From Pseudomonadota bacterium (GTDB taxonomy: Bacteria > Pseudomonadota > Gammaproteobacteria > Nitrosococcales > Methylophagaceae): a DNA stretch of 64,000 bases. Of this stretch, positions 30,733 through 56,582 are shown one piece after another; the stretch's first letter is position 1, and the number at the start of each line of letters is the position of its first letter. The notes under the pieces were generated by a model. It had not been told where the DNA came from. It saw nothing but the letters and a program-made list of their open reading frames with translations, and searched no databases. A program made the position numbers and the translations under genes. The stretch spans positions 62,001-126,000 of the forward strand of contig JALIBN010000019.1 of the NCBI GenBank assembly GCA_030576275.1. Reading direction: 5' to 3'.

Positions 30733-30808
30733 TCCTCGATAGCTCAGTTGGTAGAGCATCGGACTGTTAATCCGCAGGTCCCTGGTTCGAGTCCAGGTCG
30801 AGGAGCCA
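30733..30808 (+). tRNA. tRNA-Asn (GTT)
   Basis: A 76-nt cloverleaf with anticodon GTT in the loop CTGTTAA, T-loop GGTTCGAGTCC, acceptor TCCTCGA/TCGAGGA, G73 and encoded CCA. It is monocistronic, with its own promoter and terminator. Confidence 0.97.
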
Positions 30809-30816
30809 ACAGATTT

Positions 30817-30853
30817 AAAGCCTCAGCATTTTAATATGCTGAGGCTTTTTTGT
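30817..30853 (+). terminator. Intrinsic terminator of tRNA-Asn
   Basis: AAAGCCTCAGCAT pairs with ATGCTGAGGCTTT around a 6-base loop, followed by T residues. Confidence 0.9.
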
Positions 30854-31515
30854 TTCTTCCAATAATTCTACGAAAGAAGTCCCTAAGCAGTTTTTCAGCA
30901 ATACCAAGCTTACCTACTTAGAATCTTCATTGAAAATTTTGCTGATAAATTCAGTAAGTCATCCAATCAAATATTCTCACTGTCAGCGAAAATCTATTCC
31001 CATAATCTTGTACTGATTTAGATCAGTCATTAGTGCAACTAGCATCCCCAAAAAGCGAAGTAACCTCAACCGCACTAAAATAAGCTCCTAGCAGACAGAA
31101 TAAGAGTAAGGGGGATACTATCATTGTTAACCCATTGAATTGCTCCTCATGGCACTGGAGGCAATTTAGACGCTGTCTTATTAAGGGAAATCTTTATCAA
31201 TCAGATACAGCCATGTCTTAGTGCGGGGATAACAGGGTTATCGAACCTATTTTTGATGTTTATAACGTAAGCGTTGCTAAACCGTACTTATATCGGAGTT
31301 ATTAGTGCTACTACTTAAAGGTAGGGTAGAGGTGTGTCGCTATTTTTATCTCTGCAAGCGTATAGCACTAAATAGAGTCTATCAGCTGGTAAAGCATAAA
31401 AAGCAACATTATTAAGCGCTGAAAAAGCTAAGTTGATATCTAGGAATCAGACTATTTGGTAATTGTTGCTTAGATCTTATCGGGCGTGAGACTACAAAAA
31501 TAAGATGACCAGCGA
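30854..31515. other. Gene-free interval after tRNA-Asn (~660 bp)
   Basis: No convincing coding frame, RNA gene or transposon end was seen on either strand. Two small features stand out: the dyad ACTGAT-TTAG-ATCAGT at 31012-31027, reminiscent of an FNR/CRP half-site pair, and GATAAC-AGG-GTTATC at 31228-31242. I looked for and did not find a second copy of the tRNA-Asn 3' end, so there is no evidence for an integrated element. It may be decayed sequence. Confidence 0.5.
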
Positions 31516-32362: not shown

Positions 32363-32827
32363 TTAAATGTAAAGTGTAACGTCTGCATCACCAGCAAACT
32401 CTAGGAATGTTGCTGCACCACCACGACTGATTCCTTCAATAAAATCTTCGTTTTTGAAGTCAAATAGGTCAACCGTCATTTGGCAGGCAATTAGTTCGAC
32501 GCCTGTTTCGATACAAATATCACGCAACTCTTCTAAGCTGGCGACACCTTTTTGTTTTAGCTTACGTTTCATCATCCATGTCGCAAACCATTCTAAACCA
32601 GGGATTATCTGTATGATGCTTGGGATGGTAACGGGCATTGGCATTGCTGGGTTGCCAAGTGGTGAAACCTTCAAATTAAGTTCTTTATTGAGTAATTGCA
32701 GACCGTAGAAAGTGAAAAATATCTTCACCTCAAATCCGAGGGCTATGGCCGTTGAAGCGAGTAAAAAAGGTGGATAGGCTGAATCTAATGTACCTTTACT
32801 AGCAATGATTGCGAGTTTTTTAGCCAT
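32363..32827 (-). CDS. DsrE2-type DsrE/F-like protein
   Basis: A 154-residue protein with the N-terminal strand-helix AKKLAIIASKGTLDSAYPPFLLASTAIALG typical of DsrE2, a membrane-associated branch of the DsrE/DsrF sulfurtransferase fold. The middle contains a hydrophobic segment (IPSIIQIIPGLEWFATWMM). A conserved Cys lies in GVELIACQMTVDLFDF, the site expected to carry sulfur. It overlaps an upstream tusA by one base. TusA-DsrE2 pairs are common in sulfur-oxidising bacteria and are thought to move persulfide sulfur. Confidence 0.85.
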   Translation of the reverse strand: MAKKLAIIASKGTLDSAYPPFLLASTAIALGFEVKIFFTFYGLQLLNKELNLKVSPLGNPAMPMPVTIPSIIQIIPGLEWFATWMMKRKLKQKGVASLEELRDICIETGVELIACQMTVDLFDFKNEDFIEGISRGGAATFLEFAGDADVTLYI

Positions 32828-33063
32828 TATGCGGGACCTTTTTCAATAATAAAATGCAACTTACCATTTTGTTCATCAGTTTGGATTAAAGGATTGCCGG
32901 TCATTTTGGAGAAAGCAGGAATGTCCTGATTTGCGCCGGCATCTGTTACGATCAAACGTAATCGTTGGCCAGCGTTCATTTCTGATAAAGCTTTGCGTGC
33001 TTTAAGGACGGGTAGTGGGCAATTTAAGCCTGAAGTATCGAGTTCTACATCAAAATGTGACAT
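32827..33063 (-). CDS. TusA-family sulfur carrier protein (second copy)
   Basis: A 78-residue TusA with the CPxP motif in LDTSGLNCPLPVLKARKAL. It is the first gene of a two-gene unit with dsrE2 and is divergent from bepA-soxYZ across about 105 bases. It is more like conventional TusA than the copy at 8239. The neighbourhood (DsrE2, SoxY, SoxZ) suggests work in sulfur oxidation or sulfur shuttling rather than tRNA thiolation; this is inference. Confidence 0.92.
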   Translation of the reverse strand: MSHFDVELDTSGLNCPLPVLKARKALSEMNAGQRLRLIVTDAGANQDIPAFSKMTGNPLIQTDEQNGKLHFIIEKGPA

Positions 33064-33169
33064 GATTTTTTCCTAAGTTCTGTATCCATATAATAATCTA
33101 ATAATAAACTTAATTAGATCGTTTGTCTTGTAGGAACCCTTTTTGGAGCTAAGATGTCTACTTAGTATT

Positions 33170-34621
33170 ATGAAAAAAATTAATGCATTAATATTATTAG
33201 GCCTCATTGTTTGGCCGTTGTCGTCGTTGCATGCGCTCGATATTGCTTTGCCTGAAATGGGTGATAGTGCGGGTGCGTTGATTTCGCCACAGCAAGAACA
33301 TGAAATCGGTCAATCATTTTTCTGGCGACTGCAACAGTCGGTTGATTTGATTGATGATCCTGAAGTTAATAGTTATATACAGTCATTAGGTTATCGTTTA
33401 GCCGCCAATAGTGACGCGCCTTCTTTGAGCTTTACTTTTTTTATGGTGCCCGATCCAACGGTCAATGCCTTTGCTGCACCAGGTGGTTTTATTGGTATGA
33501 ACAGTGGTCTTATATTAACTAGCCAGCGTGAAGATGAAGTGGCTTCAGTTATGGCACATGAAATAGCGCATATTACACAACGACATCTTTTACGAAGTTT
33601 TGAGCAATCAAAACAAATGAGTGTACCGATGACCGTGGCAATGATTGCAGCGGCATTATTAGGCGCGACGACAGATGCAAAAATGGGAACGGCAGCAATT
33701 ATGGCGTTGCAAGCCGGTGGCATTCAAGCACAAATCAACTTTACGCGTGCGAATGAGAGTGAGGCGGATAATTTAGGTATGTTGACGCTGGTACGAGCAG
33801 GTTTTGATGCTCAAGCGATGCCAACCTTTTTTGAGCGCTTGCAACAAACAAGTCGGTTTTATACCAGTAGTGCCGTGCCGGAATTCCTGCGAACTCATCC
33901 AGTGACGACATCACGTATCGCCGATGCGCGAGGACGAGCTGTTACTTACCCATTAAAAAAACAACTAGGGGATAATTTACAGTTCTATTTGATACGTGAA
34001 AAATTGCGGGTGATGGCGGCGACTGATTTAAATCAATTAACAGCGTATTATGCTGATGCGTTAGCTTCCGGTAGTAGTCTGGATAACGACGCAGCCCGCT
34101 ATGGTTATAGTTTAGCTTTAGCTGCCAAAGGTGATTACATACAGGCACGTACAGTAATACAAGAACTGATAGATCAAGATAAAGACCGATTAAGTTACCA
34201 GTTAGCCTTGGCTGATCTTGAAATGGCTGTAGGGAGATTGTCGGCAGCATTAACGATTTATAACGATAATCAAAAATTATACCCTGATGATCAGGCACTG
34301 ACATTGAAACAGGTAGGTGCTTTATTACAGGCTAATCTGCCTGAAAAGGCTGTAGCATTGTTACAAACCCAACTAGAATTGGGGGCACCGTCAAGACAGC
34401 TTTATAAGTTATTGTCGCAAGCTAAAGCGGACATGGGAGAGAAAAGTCAGTCGCATAGTTGGCTCGCAGAGTATTATTATAGTTTGGGCCGCTTAGAACA
34501 GGCGGCAGATCAGTTGCGTTTAGCGGCAGGTTTTGCAAAAAATGATGACTATCAATTAGCTAAAATAAGTTCTCGATTACGTGAGGTTGAAATGACATTG
34601 GCGCAGATGGAAAAAATGTGA
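33170..34621 (+). CDS. bepA: M48 metalloprotease with TPR repeats, BepA-like
   Basis: A 483-residue periplasmic protease/chaperone for outer-membrane protein assembly. It has a signal peptide (MKKINALILLGLIVWPLSSLHA), the zinc motif HEIAH (VMAHEIAHITQRH) with the downstream Glu in NESEADNLG, and C-terminal tetratricopeptide-like helices (about residues 290-470). The start at 33170 puts the signal peptide at the N-terminus; an in-frame ATG at 33143 is disfavoured. The stop overlaps the soxY start by one base, an unexpected partner for a quality-control protease. Confidence 0.92.
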   Translation: MKKINALILLGLIVWPLSSLHALDIALPEMGDSAGALISPQQEHEIGQSFFWRLQQSVDLIDDPEVNSYIQSLGYRLAANSDAPSLSFTFFMVPDPTVNAFAAPGGFIGMNSGLILTSQREDEVASVMAHEIAHITQRHLLRSFEQSKQMSVPMTVAMIAAALLGATTDAKMGTAAIMALQAGGIQAQINFTRANESEADNLGMLTLVRAGFDAQAMPTFFERLQQTSRFYTSSAVPEFLRTHPVTTSRIADARGRAVTYPLKKQLGDNLQFYLIREKLRVMAATDLNQLTAYYADALASGSSLDNDAARYGYSLALAAKGDYIQARTVIQELIDQDKDRLSYQLALADLEMAVGRLSAALTIYNDNQKLYPDDQALTLKQVGALLQANLPEKAVALLQTQLELGAPSRQLYKLLSQAKADMGEKSQSHSWLAEYYYSLGRLEQAADQLRLAAGFAKNDDYQLAKISSRLREVEMTLAQMEKM

Positions 34622-35109
34622 TGACAGATAATAGTTTTGAGCAACGTCGAACGATTTTAAAAGGTGTAATTTCGGCATCGACTCTAGCTTTAGTGGCGGC
34701 GAGTGGTCTGTTATTACCACAGCGTGTATTGGCTCATTGGCCAATGGATGCATTTAATGCGAAAACGGTTGAAGATGCATTGATGGCATTGCTTGGACAT
34801 GCAGAATTCGTCGATGATTCTGTGGTGGAGTTTAAAGTAGGTAGTCCGCCTAGTTATGCGGTCAACGGAGCATCTGTGCCAATTGAAATTCAAAGTACCT
34901 TAAATGATATAGAACGCATTGCGATATTGGTTGAAAAAAATCCCAACCCATTGGCCATGAGTCTGGATTTTACACCTGCTGTAAAATTTCCTTTCAAAAG
35001 TATGATTAAAATCGCTGAGGATTCTTTAGTCATTGCTGTTATCAGCGCCGGTGGCAAGTTATATAGAACATCGCGAATGGTTGAAGTAGATATTGGAGGT
35101 TGTGCCTAA
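34621..35109 (+). CDS. soxY: SoxY-like sulfur carrier, Tat-exported
   Basis: A 162-residue protein with a twin-arginine signal (QRRTILKG followed by a hydrophobic stretch) and a SoxY Ig-like domain. SoxY carries sulfur intermediates on a Cys in a C-terminal GGCGG arm; here the protein ends GGCA, so the Cys is kept but the final glycines are lost. It starts at 34621 (TGATG overlap with bepA); a GTG at 34618 is the alternative. soxZ follows with a one-base overlap. No soxXA, soxB or soxCD occur in the window, so the pair may serve a partial Sox pathway or a quinoprotein-linked SoxYZ-like role. Confidence 0.88.
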   Translation: MTDNSFEQRRTILKGVISASTLALVAASGLLLPQRVLAHWPMDAFNAKTVEDALMALLGHAEFVDDSVVEFKVGSPPSYAVNGASVPIEIQSTLNDIERIAILVEKNPNPLAMSLDFTPAVKFPFKSMIKIAEDSLVIAVISAGGKLYRTSRMVEVDIGGCA

Positions 35110-35426
35110 TGGGGTTGGCTGCAAAAGATCGCATTCGAGCGAAATTGAAAGAAGATGAAACAACCGTGCGATTGTTATTGGCTCATCCGATGCATACCGG
35201 ACGAGGCAAGAATGATACTGGTGAATTGATTCCTGCGGAGTATATTCAAGATATTCGTTGTTGGCGTAATGATGATGAGGTGCTTACTATCAAATGCGGG
35301 ACTGCAACTGCGCGGAATCCATATTTTTCTTTTCAATTATTAGGTGGCCAGTTAGGCGATAAAATTACCATTCGTTGGGTGGATAATATTGGTGCTAAAG
35401 GCACAGCGGAAACTATTGTCGGATGA
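35109..35426 (+). CDS. soxZ: SoxZ-like sulfur oxidation partner
   Basis: A 105-residue protein, the usual SoxZ size, with conserved VRLLLAHPMHTGRGKNDTGELIPAEYI. SoxZ forms the SoxYZ heterodimer in the periplasm. The start at 35109 uses a TAATG overlap with soxY; an upstream in-frame ATG would add three residues. Its stop overlaps the sensor kinase ATG (ATGA), an unusual direct coupling of a sulfur carrier to a signalling pair. Confidence 0.92.
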   Translation: MGLAAKDRIRAKLKEDETTVRLLLAHPMHTGRGKNDTGELIPAEYIQDIRCWRNDDEVLTIKCGTATARNPYFSFQLLGGQLGDKITIRWVDNIGAKGTAETIVG

Positions 35427-37141
35427 GTCTAAAGGTAAAGGTTCATCTGTTTTTTGCCGTATTGTTGATAACATCATTATTAGCAAGTACTGGAGTATTG
35501 ATTAGTAATGCCCGACAGTCAGTGAAGCTTGAAATGGAAGATACCATGGCCGCCGCTGCACGCCTTATGACCGTTTCACTCTCTGGTGCATCGCTTAATA
35601 GAGAACTCGGGGTTTATGAACATTTGCAAGAATTGGTCAAAGCCCTAGGTGAAATTCGTAGTTTACATATATTGTTATTTGATTCTAAAGGATTATTATT
35701 TGAGGGTGAGCCACAGGCGAATAGTGGCGCAAAACCACCTGACTGGTTTGTTAATATATTGTTCCCAAACGTGAGACCATTAACCAAACGTTATGGTAAT
35801 GGTCATATGGTGATCTATGCTGCACCATTACAGGAAATTGGTGATCGCTGGTTAGATCTTCGTGGCATTTTAGAGCTGGGTTTTGGAATATTTGTTTTTG
35901 TCGGTTTATTTTTATATTGGGGCGTAGGTTGGTTGCTTAAGCCACTTGACCGTTTATTAGTCGCCTTATCTGGTTTCGAGCGTGGTGATCTTCATTTGCG
36001 TTTACCAAGCTTCTCTTTGGCAGAAATGAATCAAATAAGTCAGACCTTTAATCGCATGGGGCAAACACTTGAACGAAGTATTGAAGAGAATCGTCGTTTA
36101 GCGACACTGGTTAAGCAGACTGGTGATGCTATTTTATCTTTAGACCATGCTGGCAATATTACTTTTTGTAATCCAGCTGCTGAGCGATTATTTAGTCATC
36201 AAACGAGCTTGTTAGTAGGTGAAGCCTTAGCAAATTTAGGATTTACCGAATATCGTAACCGCATTGCCGACATATTGGAAAACTGCGAAACCGTAGAAAA
36301 TTTAGAAACAGGCTTACCATTGGCTGATGGTGAGATTGCTGCCATCTTATTTTCAACCGTGCCATTAATAGATCCCGATGAAAGAGTGCGCGGTGTTATC
36401 TGCACATTAAGGGATATTACTGAACACAAGCAGGCCGAAGAGGCAGAAAATCAATTACGTGAAACACGCTTGTTGACACATCATATGGCTGAAGCACAGG
36501 AAGCCGAACGTCGGCATCTAGCCCGAGAATTACATGATGAATTAGGCCAATGTCTGACGGCGATTAAAACCGATGCAGTATTAATCCGTAATCGTAGCGA
36601 AAACACAGAACCTAAAGTTTACAGAAGTGCCCAAGCGATTATTGATGTTGCAAGTCATATTTATGATGTCGTCCATAATATGATTACTCGGCTACGTCCT
36701 AGTCCTTTGGATGATTTGGGGTTAATTCCGACCTTACAGGAGTGCATTTCTGCTTGGCAGAAGCGGCAACCAAATATAGCATTCGTACTGAATATATCAG
36801 GAAAACTAGATAATTTGAACGAAGCGATGAATATGACTGTATTCAGGGTGGTACAAGAAGCCATTACCAACGCTGTACGCCATGCGGATGCTAGTGAGAT
36901 GGTCGTGTCAGTAAGTAATAAATTTGATGAGAAAATCGAACAACATCAGTTAGTCATCGAGATCGCTGATAATGGTAAAGGGATGGAAATTCAAGACTTT
37001 CACTCTGATGTCGATTTTGGCTTGTTAGGCATGCGTGAGCGAGCACACAGCTTAGGCGGAACATTTATTTTGGAAAGTAGTCTAGGGGCTGGGTTAAAAA
37101 TCCATGTCACCATTCCACTAGAGGCAGATAAAATCGTATGA
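35423..37141 (+). CDS. Membrane sensor histidine kinase, HisKA_3 (NarX/ErbS-like)
   Basis: A 572-residue kinase. Two membrane segments (about residues 7-27 and 157-178) bracket a small periplasmic sensor domain. A HAMP segment (about 178-230), a PAS domain (about 232-340) and a HisKA_3 dimerisation domain follow, with phospho-acceptor His371 in ARELHDELGQCLTAIK; the HATPase has NAVRHA and DNGKGM boxes. It overlaps soxZ by 4 bases and the response regulator by 4 bases. Position between soxYZ and the pqq cluster suggests control of PQQ or quinoprotein genes, as known for LuxR-type pairs such as ErbSR/ExaDE. The signal is unknown. Confidence 0.92.
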   Translation: MSLKVKVHLFFAVLLITSLLASTGVLISNARQSVKLEMEDTMAAAARLMTVSLSGASLNRELGVYEHLQELVKALGEIRSLHILLFDSKGLLFEGEPQANSGAKPPDWFVNILFPNVRPLTKRYGNGHMVIYAAPLQEIGDRWLDLRGILELGFGIFVFVGLFLYWGVGWLLKPLDRLLVALSGFERGDLHLRLPSFSLAEMNQISQTFNRMGQTLERSIEENRRLATLVKQTGDAILSLDHAGNITFCNPAAERLFSHQTSLLVGEALANLGFTEYRNRIADILENCETVENLETGLPLADGEIAAILFSTVPLIDPDERVRGVICTLRDITEHKQAEEAENQLRETRLLTHHMAEAQEAERRHLARELHDELGQCLTAIKTDAVLIRNRSENTEPKVYRSAQAIIDVASHIYDVVHNMITRLRPSPLDDLGLIPTLQECISAWQKRQPNIAFVLNISGKLDNLNEAMNMTVFRVVQEAITNAVRHADASEMVVSVSNKFDEKIEQHQLVIEIADNGKGMEIQDFHSDVDFGLLGMRERAHSLGGTFILESSLGAGLKIHVTIPLEADKIV

Positions 37142-37782
37142 GTAATAATAAAACAACCGTATTGTTAGTTGATGACCATGAGTTAGTGCGAGCAGGTTTT
37201 CGACGTTTATTGGAAGATGGAGATAAGCTGGTCGTGGTGGCCGAAGCTGGCAGTGGCGAACAAGCAGTACAGGATTATATGAAATACCATCCTGATGTGG
37301 TGGTGATGGATATTTCGATGCCGGGTATTGGTGGTATAGGTGCTATTGAACGCATTATTGCAAGAAGTCCAGAAGCTCGAATTCTGGTACTCAGTGTGCA
37401 TGAAGATGGAGTGTTTACCTCGCGAGCCTTGCAGGCAGGAGCCAAAGGATTTATTCCCAAACGTAGTGCACCAGAGGAAATGATTAAAGCAGTTGAGCAG
37501 GTAGCACAAGGGAAAATATTCATTGATCCTGAGATTGCACAACTAATCGCCCTGCAAAAAGTAACCGGTTCAGAAAGTATTATAGATACATTGAGTCAGC
37601 GTGAGTTTGAAGTATTTAGCTTATTAGCGGAAGGGAAAACAGTCAATGACATTGCTGATATCTTGAACCTAAGCCCCAAAACAGTCGGCACACACCACAC
37701 GAATGTTAAGCAAAAGTTGAACGTTTCTAATTCTGCCGAGTTGGCACGATTAGCCATAAGAAGCGGTATATTGGAAGCATGA
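37138..37782 (+). CDS. LuxR/NarL-family response regulator
   Basis: A 214-residue regulator. It has a receiver domain with phospho-acceptor Asp58 (VVMDISMPGIGG) and a LuxR helix-turn-helix (about residues 147-205, LSQREFEVFSLLAEGKTVNDIADILNLSPKTVGTHHTNVKQKL). It is coupled to the kinase by an ATGA overlap and lies just upstream of pqqA. Related regulators (AgmR/ErbR, ExaE) activate PQQ-dependent alcohol oxidation. The repeated dyad elements upstream of both pqqA genes are candidate targets. It resembles the regulator at 55950. Confidence 0.93.
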   Translation: MSNNKTTVLLVDDHELVRAGFRRLLEDGDKLVVVAEAGSGEQAVQDYMKYHPDVVVMDISMPGIGGIGAIERIIARSPEARILVLSVHEDGVFTSRALQAGAKGFIPKRSAPEEMIKAVEQVAQGKIFIDPEIAQLIALQKVTGSESIIDTLSQREFEVFSLLAEGKTVNDIADILNLSPKTVGTHHTNVKQKLNVSNSAELARLAIRSGILEA

Positions 37783-37924: not shown

Positions 37925-37996
37925 ATGTGGACTAAACCAGAATATTCAGACATGCGTTTTGGCTTTGAAGTAACAATGTATATTTGCAACCGTTAA
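37925..37996 (+). CDS. pqqA: PQQ precursor peptide PqqA, copy 1
   Basis: A 23-residue peptide starting [19 protein letters not shown], with the Glu15 and Tyr19 (E-V-T-M-Y) that are cross-linked by PqqE to build pyrroloquinoline quinone. GGAG lies nine bases before the ATG. It is identical in protein sequence to copy 2 but differs at silent positions. A strong terminator directly downstream makes it monocistronic. Confidence 0.97.
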
Positions 37997-38013: not shown

Positions 38014-38053
38014 AAAAAAGCCCCGATATCTTTCGATATCGGGGCTTTTTTTT
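38014..38053 (+). terminator. Intrinsic terminator between the two pqqA genes
   Basis: AAGCCCCGATATC pairs with GATATCGGGGCTT around TTTC and is followed by a run of eight T residues. Confidence 0.92.
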
Positions 38054-38208: not shown

Positions 38209-38280
38209 ATGTGGACTAAACCAGAATATTCAGATATGCGTTTCGGCTTTGAAGTAACAATGTACATCTGCAACCGTTAA
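38209..38280 (+). CDS. pqqA: PQQ precursor peptide PqqA, copy 2
   Basis: A 23-residue peptide identical to copy 1, with Glu15 and Tyr19 retained. GAGAGA precedes the ATG as a ribosome site. No terminator with a T-run separates it from pqqB, so this copy heads pqqBCDE. Two expressed copies would raise the supply of the stoichiometrically consumed precursor. Confidence 0.97.
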
Positions 38281-38402: not shown

Positions 38403-39317
38403 ATGCATATACATGTTATGGGTTCGGGGGCTGGAGGTGGTTTTCCACAATGGAACTGCAACTGCGTGAACTGTAAAGGTGTTCGCGAGGGCACTCTTAA
38501 AGCAACCAAACGAACTCAGTCTTCAATCGCAATCAGTGCTGATGGTACGGACTGGATCTTATTTAATGCCTCACCGGATATTAAAAAGCAACTGGATGAT
38601 TTTCCTGCGATGCAACCAGGTCGTGCGGTAAGAGATACAGCCATTACTGCGATAGTGATTACCGATGCTCAGATTGATCATGTTACAGGGATGTTAACAT
38701 TACGAGAACATATTGCACCTTGGGAAGTCTATACAACAGAGGCGGTTCGCCAAGATTTAACCACTGGCTTTCCGGTGTTCAATATCCTTGGTCACTTCCG
38801 TGGTATCAATCATCATGAAATTGCGACAGACCAAACACCTTTCACTATTCCAAGCGCTGAAGGTTTGGAATTTACAGCAGTACCGTTAATGAGCGAGGCA
38901 CCTCCTTATTCTCCACACCGGGGTAACACAGTGCCTGGTGATAATATTGGGATGCATATTAGAGATACACGTTCAGGTAAAAGCTTATTTTATGCTCCTG
39001 GTTTGGGTGTCGCTGAACCACATGTGTTGGAATACATGCGAAATTCAGATTGTATCTTAGTTGATGGCACTGTTTGGACTGATGACGAGATGGCAAATGA
39101 AGGCATTAGTGATAAGCGAGCCAGTGAAATGGGGCATCTCGATCAATCAAGTGATGGCGGTATCATGAGCATACTTAATGCTATGGAAAAACCGCGTAAA
39201 ATTCTTATTCATATTAACAATACTAATCCGATTTTGAATGAAGATTCGCCGCAACGTCAAACCTTGAACAAATCAGATATTGAGCTCGCATTCGACGGTA
39301 TGGATATTGAGCTATAA
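38403..39317 (+). CDS. pqqB: PqqB, metallo-beta-lactamase-fold PQQ biosynthesis protein
   Basis: A 304-residue protein of the MBL-like PqqB family. The N-terminus [24 protein letters not shown] carries the CxCxxC cysteines typical of PqqB, and the metal-site region reads [17 protein letters not shown]. PqqB is thought to act as an iron-dependent hydroxylase on the di-amino-acid intermediate or to aid PQQ release. It is the first gene after the pqqA2 hairpin and lies 35 bases before pqqC. Confidence 0.97.
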
Positions 39318-39352
39318 CCGCGTAAAAGAATTAGCAGAATAGAGGAATTACA

Positions 39353-40075
39353 ATGTCAGAAAAAACGCCATGGTCACGTGAAGAATTCGAACAAGTATTA
39401 CGAGCAAAAGAAGAGTTTTATCATATTCGCCATCCATTGCATGTCAAAATGCATTCAGGTGAAATGAGTAAAGAGCAAATTCAAGGTTGGGTGGCAAATC
39501 GTTTTTATTATCAAACGACAATACCGATGAAGGATGCAGCAATCATGGCCAATTGCCCTATTCCCGAAGTGCGTCAGCACTGGGTTCAACGTATTCTTGA
39601 CCATGATGGTTTTGAAGGAGAAGAAGGCGGAATAGAAGCATGGTTGCAACTGGGTGAATCAGTGGGTTTAACACGTGAAGAACTTTGGTCTGAAGAGCAT
39701 GTTCTACCCGGTGTACGTTTTGCAGTTGATGCCTATAGTAACTTTGCACGTCGGGCAACATGGCAAGAAGGTGCAAGTTCTTCATTAACTGAAATGTTTG
39801 CACCTAAAATTCATCAAGCACGCTTAGATAACTGGCCTGAGTCATATCCTTGGATTGATGTAAAAGGCTACCGTTATTTTCGAAAACGTTTGAGTGAAGC
39901 ACGCCGAGATGTTGAGCACGGTGTTAAAATTACATTAGATCACTTCAAAACACGTGAACAACAAGAGTATGCTGTGAGCTTGTTACAGTTTAAACTGGAT
40001 GTGCTTTGGTCAATGTGTGATGCTATGTGGATGGCGTATATTGAAAAACGTCCTCCTTACACCTTTGAGGTTTAA
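39353..40075 (+). CDS. pqqC: Pyrroloquinoline-quinone synthase PqqC
   Basis: A 240-residue, cofactor-free oxidase catalysing the last ring closure and eight-electron oxidation to PQQ. The family sequence [38 protein letters not shown] is intact, as is the helical C-terminus. It lies three bases before pqqD. Confidence 0.98.
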
Positions 40076-40078
40076 TAA

Positions 40079-40363
40079 ATGAGTGATCCGGTTTTTAATG
40101 CTAGTAGTGTTCCTTTATTAGCACTTGGCTATCGTTTTCAGTGGGAGCCGATGCAAGATTGCAACGTGCTACTTTATCCTGAAGGCATGGTTAAACTGAA
40201 TCCTGCTGCTGGCGAGATTCTTAAACATATTGATGCACATAAACAAACAGTAGCTGAATTAATTGCTGAATTAAAAGCTGCTTTTAATGGTGCTGACTTA
40301 GACAACGACGTATATAAATTTTTGGAGGAAGCTCATGACAACGGCTGGATCAGAGCAGAATAA
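40079..40363 (+). CDS. pqqD: PqqD, PqqA chaperone
   Basis: A 94-residue peptide chaperone that binds PqqA and presents it to PqqE. It has conserved [33 protein letters not shown]. Its 3' end overlaps pqqE by 29 bases, which couples translation of the two partners; in some bacteria they are fused. Confidence 0.96.
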
Positions 40364-41531
40364 GGCACCTGGAAGCACAGGTGGTGCAACAGGCATGAGT
40401 GCAAATAATGATATCCGTCAACCATTATGGTTGTTAGCAGAATTAACTTATGCATGCCCATTACAATGTCCATATTGTTCAAACCCCATGGATTACGCTA
40501 ACTTTAAGAAAGAGCTGACAACAGCTGAATGGTTGGATGTCTTCAGGCAAGCTCGTGCGATGGGCGCGACACAACTAGGACTTTCTGGTGGCGAGCCATT
40601 AACACGCCCAGATCTAGTCGAGTTAATTACCGAAGCGAGAAAGATGGGCTTCTATACCAACTTGATTACCTCTGGCGTTGGAATGGATGCAGATAAAGTC
40701 GCTGAGTTTAAAGAGGCGGGCTTAGATCATATTCAAGTCAGTTTCCAAGCGAGCTCGGAAGACTTGAATGATTTGATCGCAGGTACCGATGCTTTCAAGC
40801 ATAAAATTGCAATGGCTAAGGCGGTGAAAGCTAATGGCTATCCAATGGTTTTATGCTTTGTAACTCATCGTCAAAATATCGACCAAATGGAAGATATTCT
40901 TGAGTTAGCTATTTCACTTGAGGCAGATTATTTAGAACTTGCTACGACTCAGTACTATGGTTGGGCCATGCATAACCGTGATCAATTATTGCCAATGAAA
41001 GAGCAGTTAGTGAAAGCTGAGGCAATAGCGCATCGTTATCAAGAAGAACAACAAGGTAAGATGAAAATCTATTATGTTGTGCCAGATTATTACGAAGAAC
41101 GTCCAAAAGCTTGTATGAATGGTTGGGGTAATGTTTTCTTAACTATAACGCCTGATGGCGTGGCTCTACCATGTCATGCAGCACGTGAATTGCCCGGCAT
41201 GGAATTGCCAAACATCAGAGATGTTTCGGTGAAAGAAATCTGGGAAGATTCAAATGACTTTAATCGCTTCCGTGGTTATGAATGGATGAAAGAGCCGTGT
41301 CGTTCTTGTGATGAAAAAGAGAAAGATTTTGGTGGTTGCCGTTGTCAGGCATATATGTTGACCGGTGATCCTGCCAGTGCCGATCCTGTTTGTAGTAAAT
41401 CATTTGATCATCACTTGATCGAAGAAGCTTTAAAACGTGGTCGCTTGGAAGCTGAAAAAACAGTATCAGAGGCTAAACCTTTGGTATTTCGTAATCCGAA
41501 AAACTCTAAAAAATTATCTGCTAGTGAGTAA
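40335..41531 (+). CDS. pqqE: PqqE radical SAM enzyme
   Basis: A 398-residue radical SAM enzyme that forms the Glu-Tyr carbon-carbon bond in PqqA. The radical SAM cluster motif CPLQCPYC is present, followed by [13 protein letters not shown]; the SPASM-domain cysteines are near the C-terminus ([28 protein letters not shown]). The start at 40335 inside pqqD is supported by GGAGG at ideal spacing; an ATG at 40395 would remove a poorly conserved Gly-rich N-terminus. The gene overlaps the following ABC ATPase by 8 bases. Confidence 0.97.
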
Positions 41532-54615: not shown

Positions 54616-55953
54616 ATGAGTTTAAAATTTCGCATCGTAGTGATTGTGACCATCATATTATTGATTAACTTCGCCGCTGCCGGCTATTTTATGGTGCATA
54701 ACGCGCGGCAAGCTTTAGTTGCAGAAATGGAGTCAAGTACCAATTTAGCCAAGGGTTTGTTGATTAATGCTTTGCCGACTTTACGTTTTTCTAACGATTT
54801 GGGCGAACGATTGACGATGATTGTCGACAGTGTGCGCGATACGCGACACATTCGTGCTTGGTTTGAAGATATGAGCGGCGAGCCGCTAATTGGTCATGAA
54901 AAAAACTCACACTTTATTAATAAACCTGATGCGCCAAATTGGTTTATTAAAATGATGGAGCCAGAAGCGGTAGCTTTTCGACGCTTGATTACCAAAGGTA
55001 GTAAATCTTATGGCTACTTAGTGGTTGAAGCAGACCCAAGTGATGAAGTTAATGAAGTATGGGCTGACGTGCAAGTGCTATTTTGGTTAGGGACTTTTTT
55101 CTTAATGCTGATTGTGGGCCTTATTTATGTGGCACTTCGTCAAGGTTTAAAGCCACTAGAGGTACTTGAAGATGCTCTAGGGCAATTGGAAAAAGGTGAT
55201 TTCTCTGCCCGCGTTGATACTTCAGTTGTTAAAGAGCTGTCTTCTATTCAATTTCGTTTTAATCATATGGCGAGCGTATTAGAGCATACGATGGCAGAAA
55301 ATCACGCTTTGGCGGGAAGTATGCTGACGCTTCAAGAAGAGGAACGGCGGGATTTATCACGAGAATTACATGATGAATTAGGACCTTGTTTATTCGGAAT
55401 TAGAGTCGATTTAGGCAATATCGAACGTTTAGCCGCTGAGCATAAACTCCCTGAAATAGAACAAAAAGTAGAGTCAGTTAAGGTTATTACTAACCATGTA
55501 CAATCTTTAGTACGGAAGATGTTAAGTCGCTTACGGCCTTTAACCTTAGACGATTTGGGTTTAGTCGATGCGCTAAAGGATATGTTACATAATTGGCGTG
55601 ATAGACAACCGGAAATTGATTGGGAATGGGACTTTGTTGGCAACTTTCAACATTTGCCTGATACTCTGCAAGTAACGATTTATCGGATTGTGCAAGAATG
55701 TACTACCAACTGTGTTCGCCATGCTCATGCTAGCCATGTAAAAGTAGAGGCGCGGTGCGAGCATGGATCCGTTAAAGTGACGGTAACAGATGATGGTGTC
55801 GGATTTCATGCGGACTTAGTGCGTGGCTTCGGTTTGATTGGTATGCGTGAGCGAGTGAGCGCGTTAGGTGGACGAATTGCATTTGATACTGCAGAAGGGC
55901 GCGGCTTACAGGTAAGGGTATTAATCCCATTAAAAGGAAATGATAAAACATGA
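54616..55953 (+). CDS. Membrane sensor histidine kinase, HisKA_3 (second system)
   Basis: A 445-residue kinase. Two membrane segments (about residues 7-27 and 157-178) flank a periplasmic domain of about 130 residues. HAMP follows, then HisKA_3 with His252 in LSRELHDELGPCLFGIRVDL and an HATPase with NCVRHAHAS and DDGVGF. It lacks the PAS domain of the kinase at 35423 but has the same overall design, suggesting paralogy. The 3' end overlaps the regulator gene by 4 bases. Signal unknown. Confidence 0.92.
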   Translation: MSLKFRIVVIVTIILLINFAAAGYFMVHNARQALVAEMESSTNLAKGLLINALPTLRFSNDLGERLTMIVDSVRDTRHIRAWFEDMSGEPLIGHEKNSHFINKPDAPNWFIKMMEPEAVAFRRLITKGSKSYGYLVVEADPSDEVNEVWADVQVLFWLGTFFLMLIVGLIYVALRQGLKPLEVLEDALGQLEKGDFSARVDTSVVKELSSIQFRFNHMASVLEHTMAENHALAGSMLTLQEEERRDLSRELHDELGPCLFGIRVDLGNIERLAAEHKLPEIEQKVESVKVITNHVQSLVRKMLSRLRPLTLDDLGLVDALKDMLHNWRDRQPEIDWEWDFVGNFQHLPDTLQVTIYRIVQECTTNCVRHAHASHVKVEARCEHGSVKVTVTDDGVGFHADLVRGFGLIGMRERVSALGGRIAFDTAEGRGLQVRVLIPLKGNDKT

Positions 55954-56582
55954 ATGTGATCACGATTTTAGTGGTGGATGACCACCCCATCGTTCGCGCG
56001 GGTTGTCGCCAACTTATTCAACAAATTCCCAATACCAAAGTAATTGAAGCAGAAACCGGTGAAGAAGGTTATCTACTTTTCCAAGAAAACTACCCCGATA
56101 TGGTTTTGCTAGATATTACCTTGCCGGGAATAGGTGGTCTTGAAGTATTACGCAAAATGCGCGCTAACCGTGAAAATGCCAAAGTGTTGATGTTTAGTAT
56201 GCATGAAGATCCAGTCTTTGCCTCTCGTGCAATGCAAGCTGGTGCCAAGGGCTATATTACTAAAAATAATGCGGCGGATTATTTGGTTGAAGCTGTTGAG
56301 AAAGTCCTAGCGGGTAAAACATATCTTAGCCCAGATACAGCTCAGCAATTAGCGATGTTAAATATTGGTGCAGGTACCAGTGCTTTGAGTGATTTATCTC
56401 GCCGAGAGTTAGAAATTTTACGACTGTTAGGTGAAGGTAAAAGCATGACGGAAATATCAAACTTATTGGGTATCAGCTATAAAACAGTCGCAAATAACCT
56501 TACTCAAATAAAAAGTAAGCTTGATATTAATAAAACAGCAGAGTTAATGCGGTTTGCCATTAGTCATGGATTATCGTCGTAG
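55950..56582 (+). CDS. LuxR/NarL-family response regulator (second system)
   Basis: A 210-residue regulator with receiver Asp in MVLLDITLPGIGG and a LuxR-type helix-turn-helix (LSRRELEILRLLGEGKSMTEISNLLGISYKTVANNLTQIKSKL). It is translationally coupled to the kinase by ATGA. Targets are not evident; the nearest downstream operon (56912 on) begins 330 bases away, beyond a terminator. Confidence 0.93.
   Translation: MNVITILVVDDHPIVRAGCRQLIQQIPNTKVIEAETGEEGYLLFQENYPDMVLLDITLPGIGGLEVLRKMRANRENAKVLMFSMHEDPVFASRAMQAGAKGYITKNNAADYLVEAVEKVLAGKTYLSPDTAQQLAMLNIGAGTSALSDLSRRELEILRLLGEGKSMTEISNLLGISYKTVANNLTQIKSKLDINKTAELMRFAISHGLSS

Follow-up and report, generated by a model that had tools for sequence, protein, structure and literature searches.

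SoxY and SoxZ are usually read as markers of thiosulfate oxidation. In a 64,000-nucleotide window of a Methylophagaceae genome (the whole stretch of DNA analysed here), soxY and soxZ, kept here without soxX, soxA or soxB as a core pair of this methylotroph family, are instead embedded in a series of overlapping genes, probably one transcript, between a bepA-like protease gene and a sensor kinase–response regulator pair, next to the PQQ biosynthesis genes. What could a SoxYZ carrier do in this setting, and is it coupled to the kinase beside it? The features on which the answer depends are as follows.

32363–32827, minus strand: dsrE2, encoding the sulfur carrier DsrE2, a conserved divergent neighbour (NF047629, 254.3 bits; cut-off 210)
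32827–33063, minus strand: tusA (PF01206, 78.3 bits; TusA equivalog model, 54.6 bits, below its cut-off of 78)
33133–33160, plus strand: GGAACC-N17-GTCTA, a sigma-E-like promoter 9 bases upstream of the bepA start
33170–34621, plus strand: bepA-like M48 metalloprotease/TPR protein gene, the first gene of the unit (PF01435, 128.6 bits)
34621–35109, plus strand: soxY, with a Tat-type signal (PF13501, 82.9 bits; TIGR04488, 109.5 bits against a cut-off of 125)
35101–35103, plus strand: codon of the SoxY carrier cysteine, the residue lost in the sister clade
35109–35426, plus strand: soxZ (TIGR04490, 102.9 bits, cut-off 76; PF08770, 97.1 bits)
35295–35297, plus strand: codon of SoxZ Cys63 (68/68 family rows, 0/89 other SoxZ)
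35423–37141, plus strand: sensor histidine kinase with periplasmic domain, HAMP, PAS, HisKA_3 and HATPase
37138–37782, plus strand: LuxR-type response regulator (PF00072, PF00196)
37925–37996, plus strand: pqqA copy 1 of the neighbouring PQQ block, read from the sequence (86% identical repeat)
38209–38280, plus strand: pqqA copy 2, read likewise (86% identical repeat)
38403–41531, plus strand: pqqB-pqqC-pqqD-pqqE of the neighbouring PQQ block, which recurs (names from translations)

An earlier note on this DNA had described overlaps of 1, 1, 4 and 4 bases along the series bepA–soxY–soxZ–kinase–regulator, and the sequence confirmed them as TGATG, TAATG, ATGA and ATGA, respectively. SoxY does end in GGCA as described, its C-terminus reading VDIGGCA, and the translations bore out the reported absence of soxXA, soxB and soxCD from the window. 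The tusA–dsrE2 pair (32363–33063), which is divergent from bepA and whose two genes overlap by one base (TAATG), had been missed, as had the promoter-like sequence at the bepA start. The bepA product contains both M48 and TPR parts and matches NF052400 over its full length with 381 bits, under the cut-off of 570. Both pqqA copies sit in a 98-base repeat (86% identical), and a strong terminator-like hairpin separates the two copies at 38014–38051. On the other side of the unit, the ~700 bases past a tRNA gene (30733–30805), at 30806–31515, hold no long ORF, and no Rfam family was found there.

The SoxY family profile matches the SoxY structures 2nnc, 2ox5 and 2oxg, and SoxY and SoxZ both show full-length homology to their namesakes. 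Judged as a thiosulfate-type SoxYZ, the pair departs in its tail, GGCA in place of the GGCGG arm, in its TIGR04488 score, and in its genomic company. Genome-wide searches covering SoxA and SoxB gave no match to either in the source genome (G000; 2.37 Mb, 34 contigs, 99.98% complete; closest named records, Methylophaga). A standalone SoxC sulfane dehydrogenase is encoded at G000:C24:125591-126817 (572.6 bits, cut-off 420), and the cytochrome gene beside soxC, whose product matched no NCBIfam model, occupies the expected soxD position. The flavoprotein domain of a flavocytochrome c is encoded at C19:168313. PQQ alcohol dehydrogenases are also present, some copies being broken; those with stop codons are at G000:C1:61026-62584 and C24:186521-187043. 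The search that the earlier note had recommended thus recovered SoxC and PQQ dehydrogenases without SoxA or SoxB, and the complete sox operon elsewhere in the genome that would have spoken for chance adjacency was not found.

The gene order suggests where such a locus may have come from. In a class-wide sample of 40 SoxY loci, bepA lies directly 5′ of sox genes in 22 by hand count; 21 of these 22 read bepA-soxX-soxY-soxZ-soxA(-soxB), often with divergent tusA/dsrE2, and locus L114 has the same bepA-sox arrangement with hdr-like genes beyond dsrE2. A divergent soxY variant adjoining genes for a beta-barrel assembly-enhancing protease (BepA-type) has been described in Sedimenticola (PMC11237559). 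Since bepA-soxYZ together with tusA-dsrE2 matches this class-wide arrangement, the window locus appears to be an ancestral gammaproteobacterial sox locus stripped of soxX, soxA and soxB. It resembles soxXYZAB operons with bepA and tusA/dsrE2 (L183, L186, L199 and others) in bepA gene order and in its SoxY and SoxZ families, but lacks soxX, soxA and soxB, ends in GGCA rather than GGCGG, and adds SoxZ Cys63 and an attached kinase–regulator pair. The SoxYZ tree is unrooted and places the family on a long branch, so the proposed descent from a bepA-linked operon rests on gene order and not on the tree.

Within the genus, the soxY of this locus was found in 25 of 25 genomes searched, in every case with bepA directly 5′, as also in named Methylophaga. 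The tusA-dsrE2 pair is divergent from bepA in most genus loci (one or both genes undetected in L053 and L055-L057). Downstream of soxZ, the genomes divide into two clades. The SoxY cysteine is kept and the kinase and regulator genes follow soxZ in 17 of the 25; in the remaining 8, the sister clade, the cysteine and the kinase–regulator pair are both gone, and msrA-pcm-rhd-tolC come next after soxZ. Between soxZ and msrA, the window has the kinase, the regulator, pqqA-E and two ABC genes. Because soxZ joins msrA directly in the sister clade, this block is either there or missing in its entirety. The 4-base overlap between soxZ and the kinase gene is present in 31 of 34 named loci and that between kinase and regulator in 22 of 32. 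Recurrence of the overlap order across the family excludes the gene order unique to this genome that the earlier note had named as a ground for refutation.

The motif GGAACC-N17-GTCTA, called sigma-E-like for its resemblance to that consensus, is found at the bepA start in 32 of the named Methylophagaceae loci, from both clades; this count comes from a locus-wide scan, as a fixed upstream window undercounts because of longest-ORF starts. Within the 64 kb, the pattern GGAACN{15,19}GTCTA has 2 matches against 0.33 expected, the second of which is inside the kinase gene.

The genes beyond the regulator indicate what the kinase may control. In all 26 kinase-bearing loci with enough sequence, the 3′ neighbours are of PQQ type: pqqBCDE, or its start, in 12, and a second kinase–regulator pair plus a PQQ alcohol dehydrogenase in 14 (the dehydrogenase positions of G017 and G023 were taken from a separate dehydrogenase search). 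The sister clade, which lacks PQQ dehydrogenases, also lacks the kinase and regulator. Given these constant neighbours, methanol/PQQ control is the likelier target, and the pair most likely acts on the adjacent methanol/PQQ genes, by analogy with Paracoccus, where mxaXYZ flank mxaF and mxaF expression requires MxaX (PMC5018670). Like MxaY/MxaX, the window pair adjoins PQQ-related genes, those of Paracoccus being for a PQQ methanol dehydrogenase (PMC5018670); in contrast, the window kinase combines a weak periplasmic-domain match with an internal PAS, and its targets are predicted. The LapD_MoxY_N match in the window kinase is 17.1 bits against a Pfam cut-off of 25 (E 0.005), and 5 of 7 kinase orthologs match, the best at E 2.1e-5. 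The structure model of the kinase (pTM 0.34) was too weak for assigning a sensor domain. A second kinase–regulator pair, in which LapD_MoxY_N is clearly matched (53.9 bits), is located at 54616–56582 of the window, before a TonB/ExbB/ExbD-like cluster. Two consecutive kinase–regulator pairs precede mxaF in L079, L095, L096 and other loci of named Methylophaga species.

These neighbours bear on the possibility of hitch-hiking, in which SoxYZ is retained in the bepA operon with a small sulfur-detoxifying role and the kinase–regulator pair is a downstream MxaYX-like methanol/PQQ regulator with no functional link to it. The coming or going of the soxZ–msrA interval as one block while bepA-soxYZ stays, the invariable PQQ or PQQ-dehydrogenase border, the Paracoccus precedent (PMC5018670) and a kinase periplasmic domain devoid of cysteine all agree with such a separation. 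Retention of the 4-base soxZ/kinase overlap in 31 of 34 loci and loss of the SoxY cysteine in the clade that lacks the block speak against it, and we regard hitch-hiking as possible but rather unlikely.

The earlier note had suggested, as one of two options, that sulfur state is sensed; in such a reading, the kinase periplasmic domain would read the sulfur load of SoxYZ and the regulator would adjust methanol or sulfur genes. The translational overlap of soxZ and the kinase gene would fit, as would the joint presence of the SoxY cysteine and the kinase (17 versus 8 genomes), but the latter is confounded by a single event. Moreover, no cysteine was found in the periplasmic domain across 28 kinase orthologs, the conserved cysteines 249, 327 and 377 falling in the PAS and kinase domains, so that any signal from SoxYZ would have to pass by protein contact. 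Where the PQQ block is absent, the kinase and regulator are absent too, but SoxYZ still stands next to bepA. The suggestion that sulfur state is sensed therefore finds no direct support here, and we consider it very improbable.

As to the note's other suggestion, a quinoprotein-related role, the PQQ/methanol link is real and broader than had been proposed, but SoxYZ falls outside the quinoprotein-associated SoxYZ family. Fused SoxYZ-like carriers beside PQQ alcohol dehydrogenases are already known (PMC11237559, PMC12997753), and service to these enzymes could explain why PQQ or PQQ-dehydrogenase genes always adjoin the cysteine-bearing locus and why a PQQ alcohol dehydrogenase was found in 16 of 17 cysteine-bearing genomes versus 0 of 8 cysteine-less ones. 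The exception, G005, kept the cysteine with no PQQ dehydrogenase found in a genome that is 73% complete. A Fisher test on this split gives 8e-6, treating as independent genomes that are not. The TIGR04557 carriers likewise comprise SoxY and SoxZ relatives beside PQQ dehydrogenases, but each is a single fused chain with its own metallohydrolase. Membership of the window pair was rejected: it consists of two genes and scores 50.5 (SoxY) and 49.8 (SoxZ) against a cut-off of 140, and a true fused carrier that exceeds this cut-off is already encoded elsewhere in the same genome, at C34, together with a metallohydrolase of family TIGR04559. The window pair has pqqBCDE or PQQ-dehydrogenase genes nearby, but no such metallohydrolase. 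Genomes in which a search found no PQQ dehydrogenase nevertheless keep bepA-soxYZ. A role in quinoprotein service is thus quite improbable.

Other traits follow the same split. Standalone SoxC is present in 17 of 17 cysteine-bearing genomes versus 0 of 8 cysteine-less ones; among those tested, the flavocytochrome c flavoprotein domain and the kinase ortholog each occur in 11 of 11 versus 0 of 5. SoxB shows the opposite trend (2 of 17 versus 6 of 8). The cysteine-less SoxY rows form one clade (support 100/94); the cysteine loss thus represents one event, and all of these associations are confounded by ancestry. The full sox operon of the sister clade encodes a separate SoxYZ, placed in another part of the tree. 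Redundancy with that operon as the sole cause of the cysteine loss is weakened by G002 and G015, which have both SoxB and the cysteine.

Loss of the carrier residue has not been followed by decay of the gene. The cysteine-less SoxY proteins contain no cysteine anywhere (in G003, the C-terminal part only was read), and no frameshift hides one. For soxY, cysteine-less pairs have dN/dS values of 0.02-0.12 and cysteine-bearing pairs values of 0.05-0.12, with dS saturated in some pairs; values for soxZ are similar. In addition, one cysteine-less SoxY was modelled with a mean pLDDT of 80.9, and its best structural matches are SoxY. Decay was accordingly rejected: the cysteine-less soxY is under purifying selection. 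Its retention suggests a function distinct from thiosulfate oxidation and makes this clade, which keeps SoxYZ after losing the function-defining residue, a test case for other SoxYZ roles.

One such role could centre on SoxZ, in which two cysteines had gone unmentioned in the earlier note. All 68 family rows have cysteine at position 63, against 0 of 89 other SoxZ (mostly W, L or F there); at position 51, the counts are 67 of 68 and 26 of 89, respectively. Some genomes are represented twice among the 68 rows, having come from two collections, so the distinct genomes are fewer. A Cys51–Cys63 disulfide was judged unlikely from the hairpin register. Because Cys63 does not vary within the family, even in genomes whose SoxY is devoid of cysteine, it, rather than the SoxY arm, might be the essential site. 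SoxYZ would then be a sigma-E-controlled periplasmic thiol factor that maintains the redox state of envelope proteins or quinoproteins and feeds the attached kinase in PQQ-dependent methylotrophs. We regard this proposal as improbable.

The reading we favour, held tentatively and with a little less than even confidence, is that of a relic sox locus encoding a SoxXAB-independent sulfane carrier, which passes sulfur from flavocytochrome c to SoxCD and is co-expressed with a methanol/PQQ-type regulator. An ancestral supercluster, dsrE2-tusA divergent from bepA-soxX-soxYZ-soxA-soxB, would have lost soxX, soxA and soxB, leaving bepA-soxYZ under the conserved sigma-E-like promoter. Among the PQQ-dependent Methylophagaceae, the kinase and regulator genes, as the edge of a methanol/PQQ block, would have become translationally joined to soxZ. 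Flavocytochrome c sulfide dehydrogenase may supply periplasmic sulfane sulfur, to be taken up by the GGCA cysteine of SoxY, possibly aided by SoxZ Cys63, and separately encoded SoxCD would then oxidise the SoxY-bound sulfur without SoxXA and SoxB. The gene content fits this flow, whose net effect would be to clear sulfide and sulfur derived from methanethiol during growth on C1 compounds, while the kinase–regulator pair, co-expressed with SoxYZ, would act on the adjoining methanol/PQQ genes. Gene content, order, overlaps, co-occurrence, the promoter motif and selection are observed here, whereas the sulfur flow, the targets of the regulator and any coupling between the two are inferred.

Several points weigh against the sulfane-carrier reading. 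SoxB-less release of product from SoxY lacks a demonstrated enzyme, the SoxH-like metallohydrolase belonging to quinoprotein family TIGR04559; purifying selection after cysteine loss is unexplained by a pure sulfur-carrier role; and all the co-occurrences come from one two-clade split and are not independent. A close parallel is Methylophaga thiooxydans, of the same family, in which soxCDHYZ are reported to be present and soxAB missing, along with higher levels of some Sox proteins on DMS (PMC6548844). The available part of that description includes neither the bepA and kinase linkage nor the cysteine loss or SoxZ Cys63 (PMC6548844). A non-exhaustive literature search found no prior description of the SoxY cysteine loss, SoxZ Cys63 or the block structure. 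The locus also offers a test case for the way in which methylotrophs exposed to DMS and methanethiol link sulfur handling with the oxidation of methanol. In the sister-clade genome G010, a methanethiol-oxidase-like gene, named from its sequence pattern, comes after a full sox operon at L065:6918-17723 (soxCDXYZA, then soxB), an arrangement that ties organic to inorganic sulfur oxidation.
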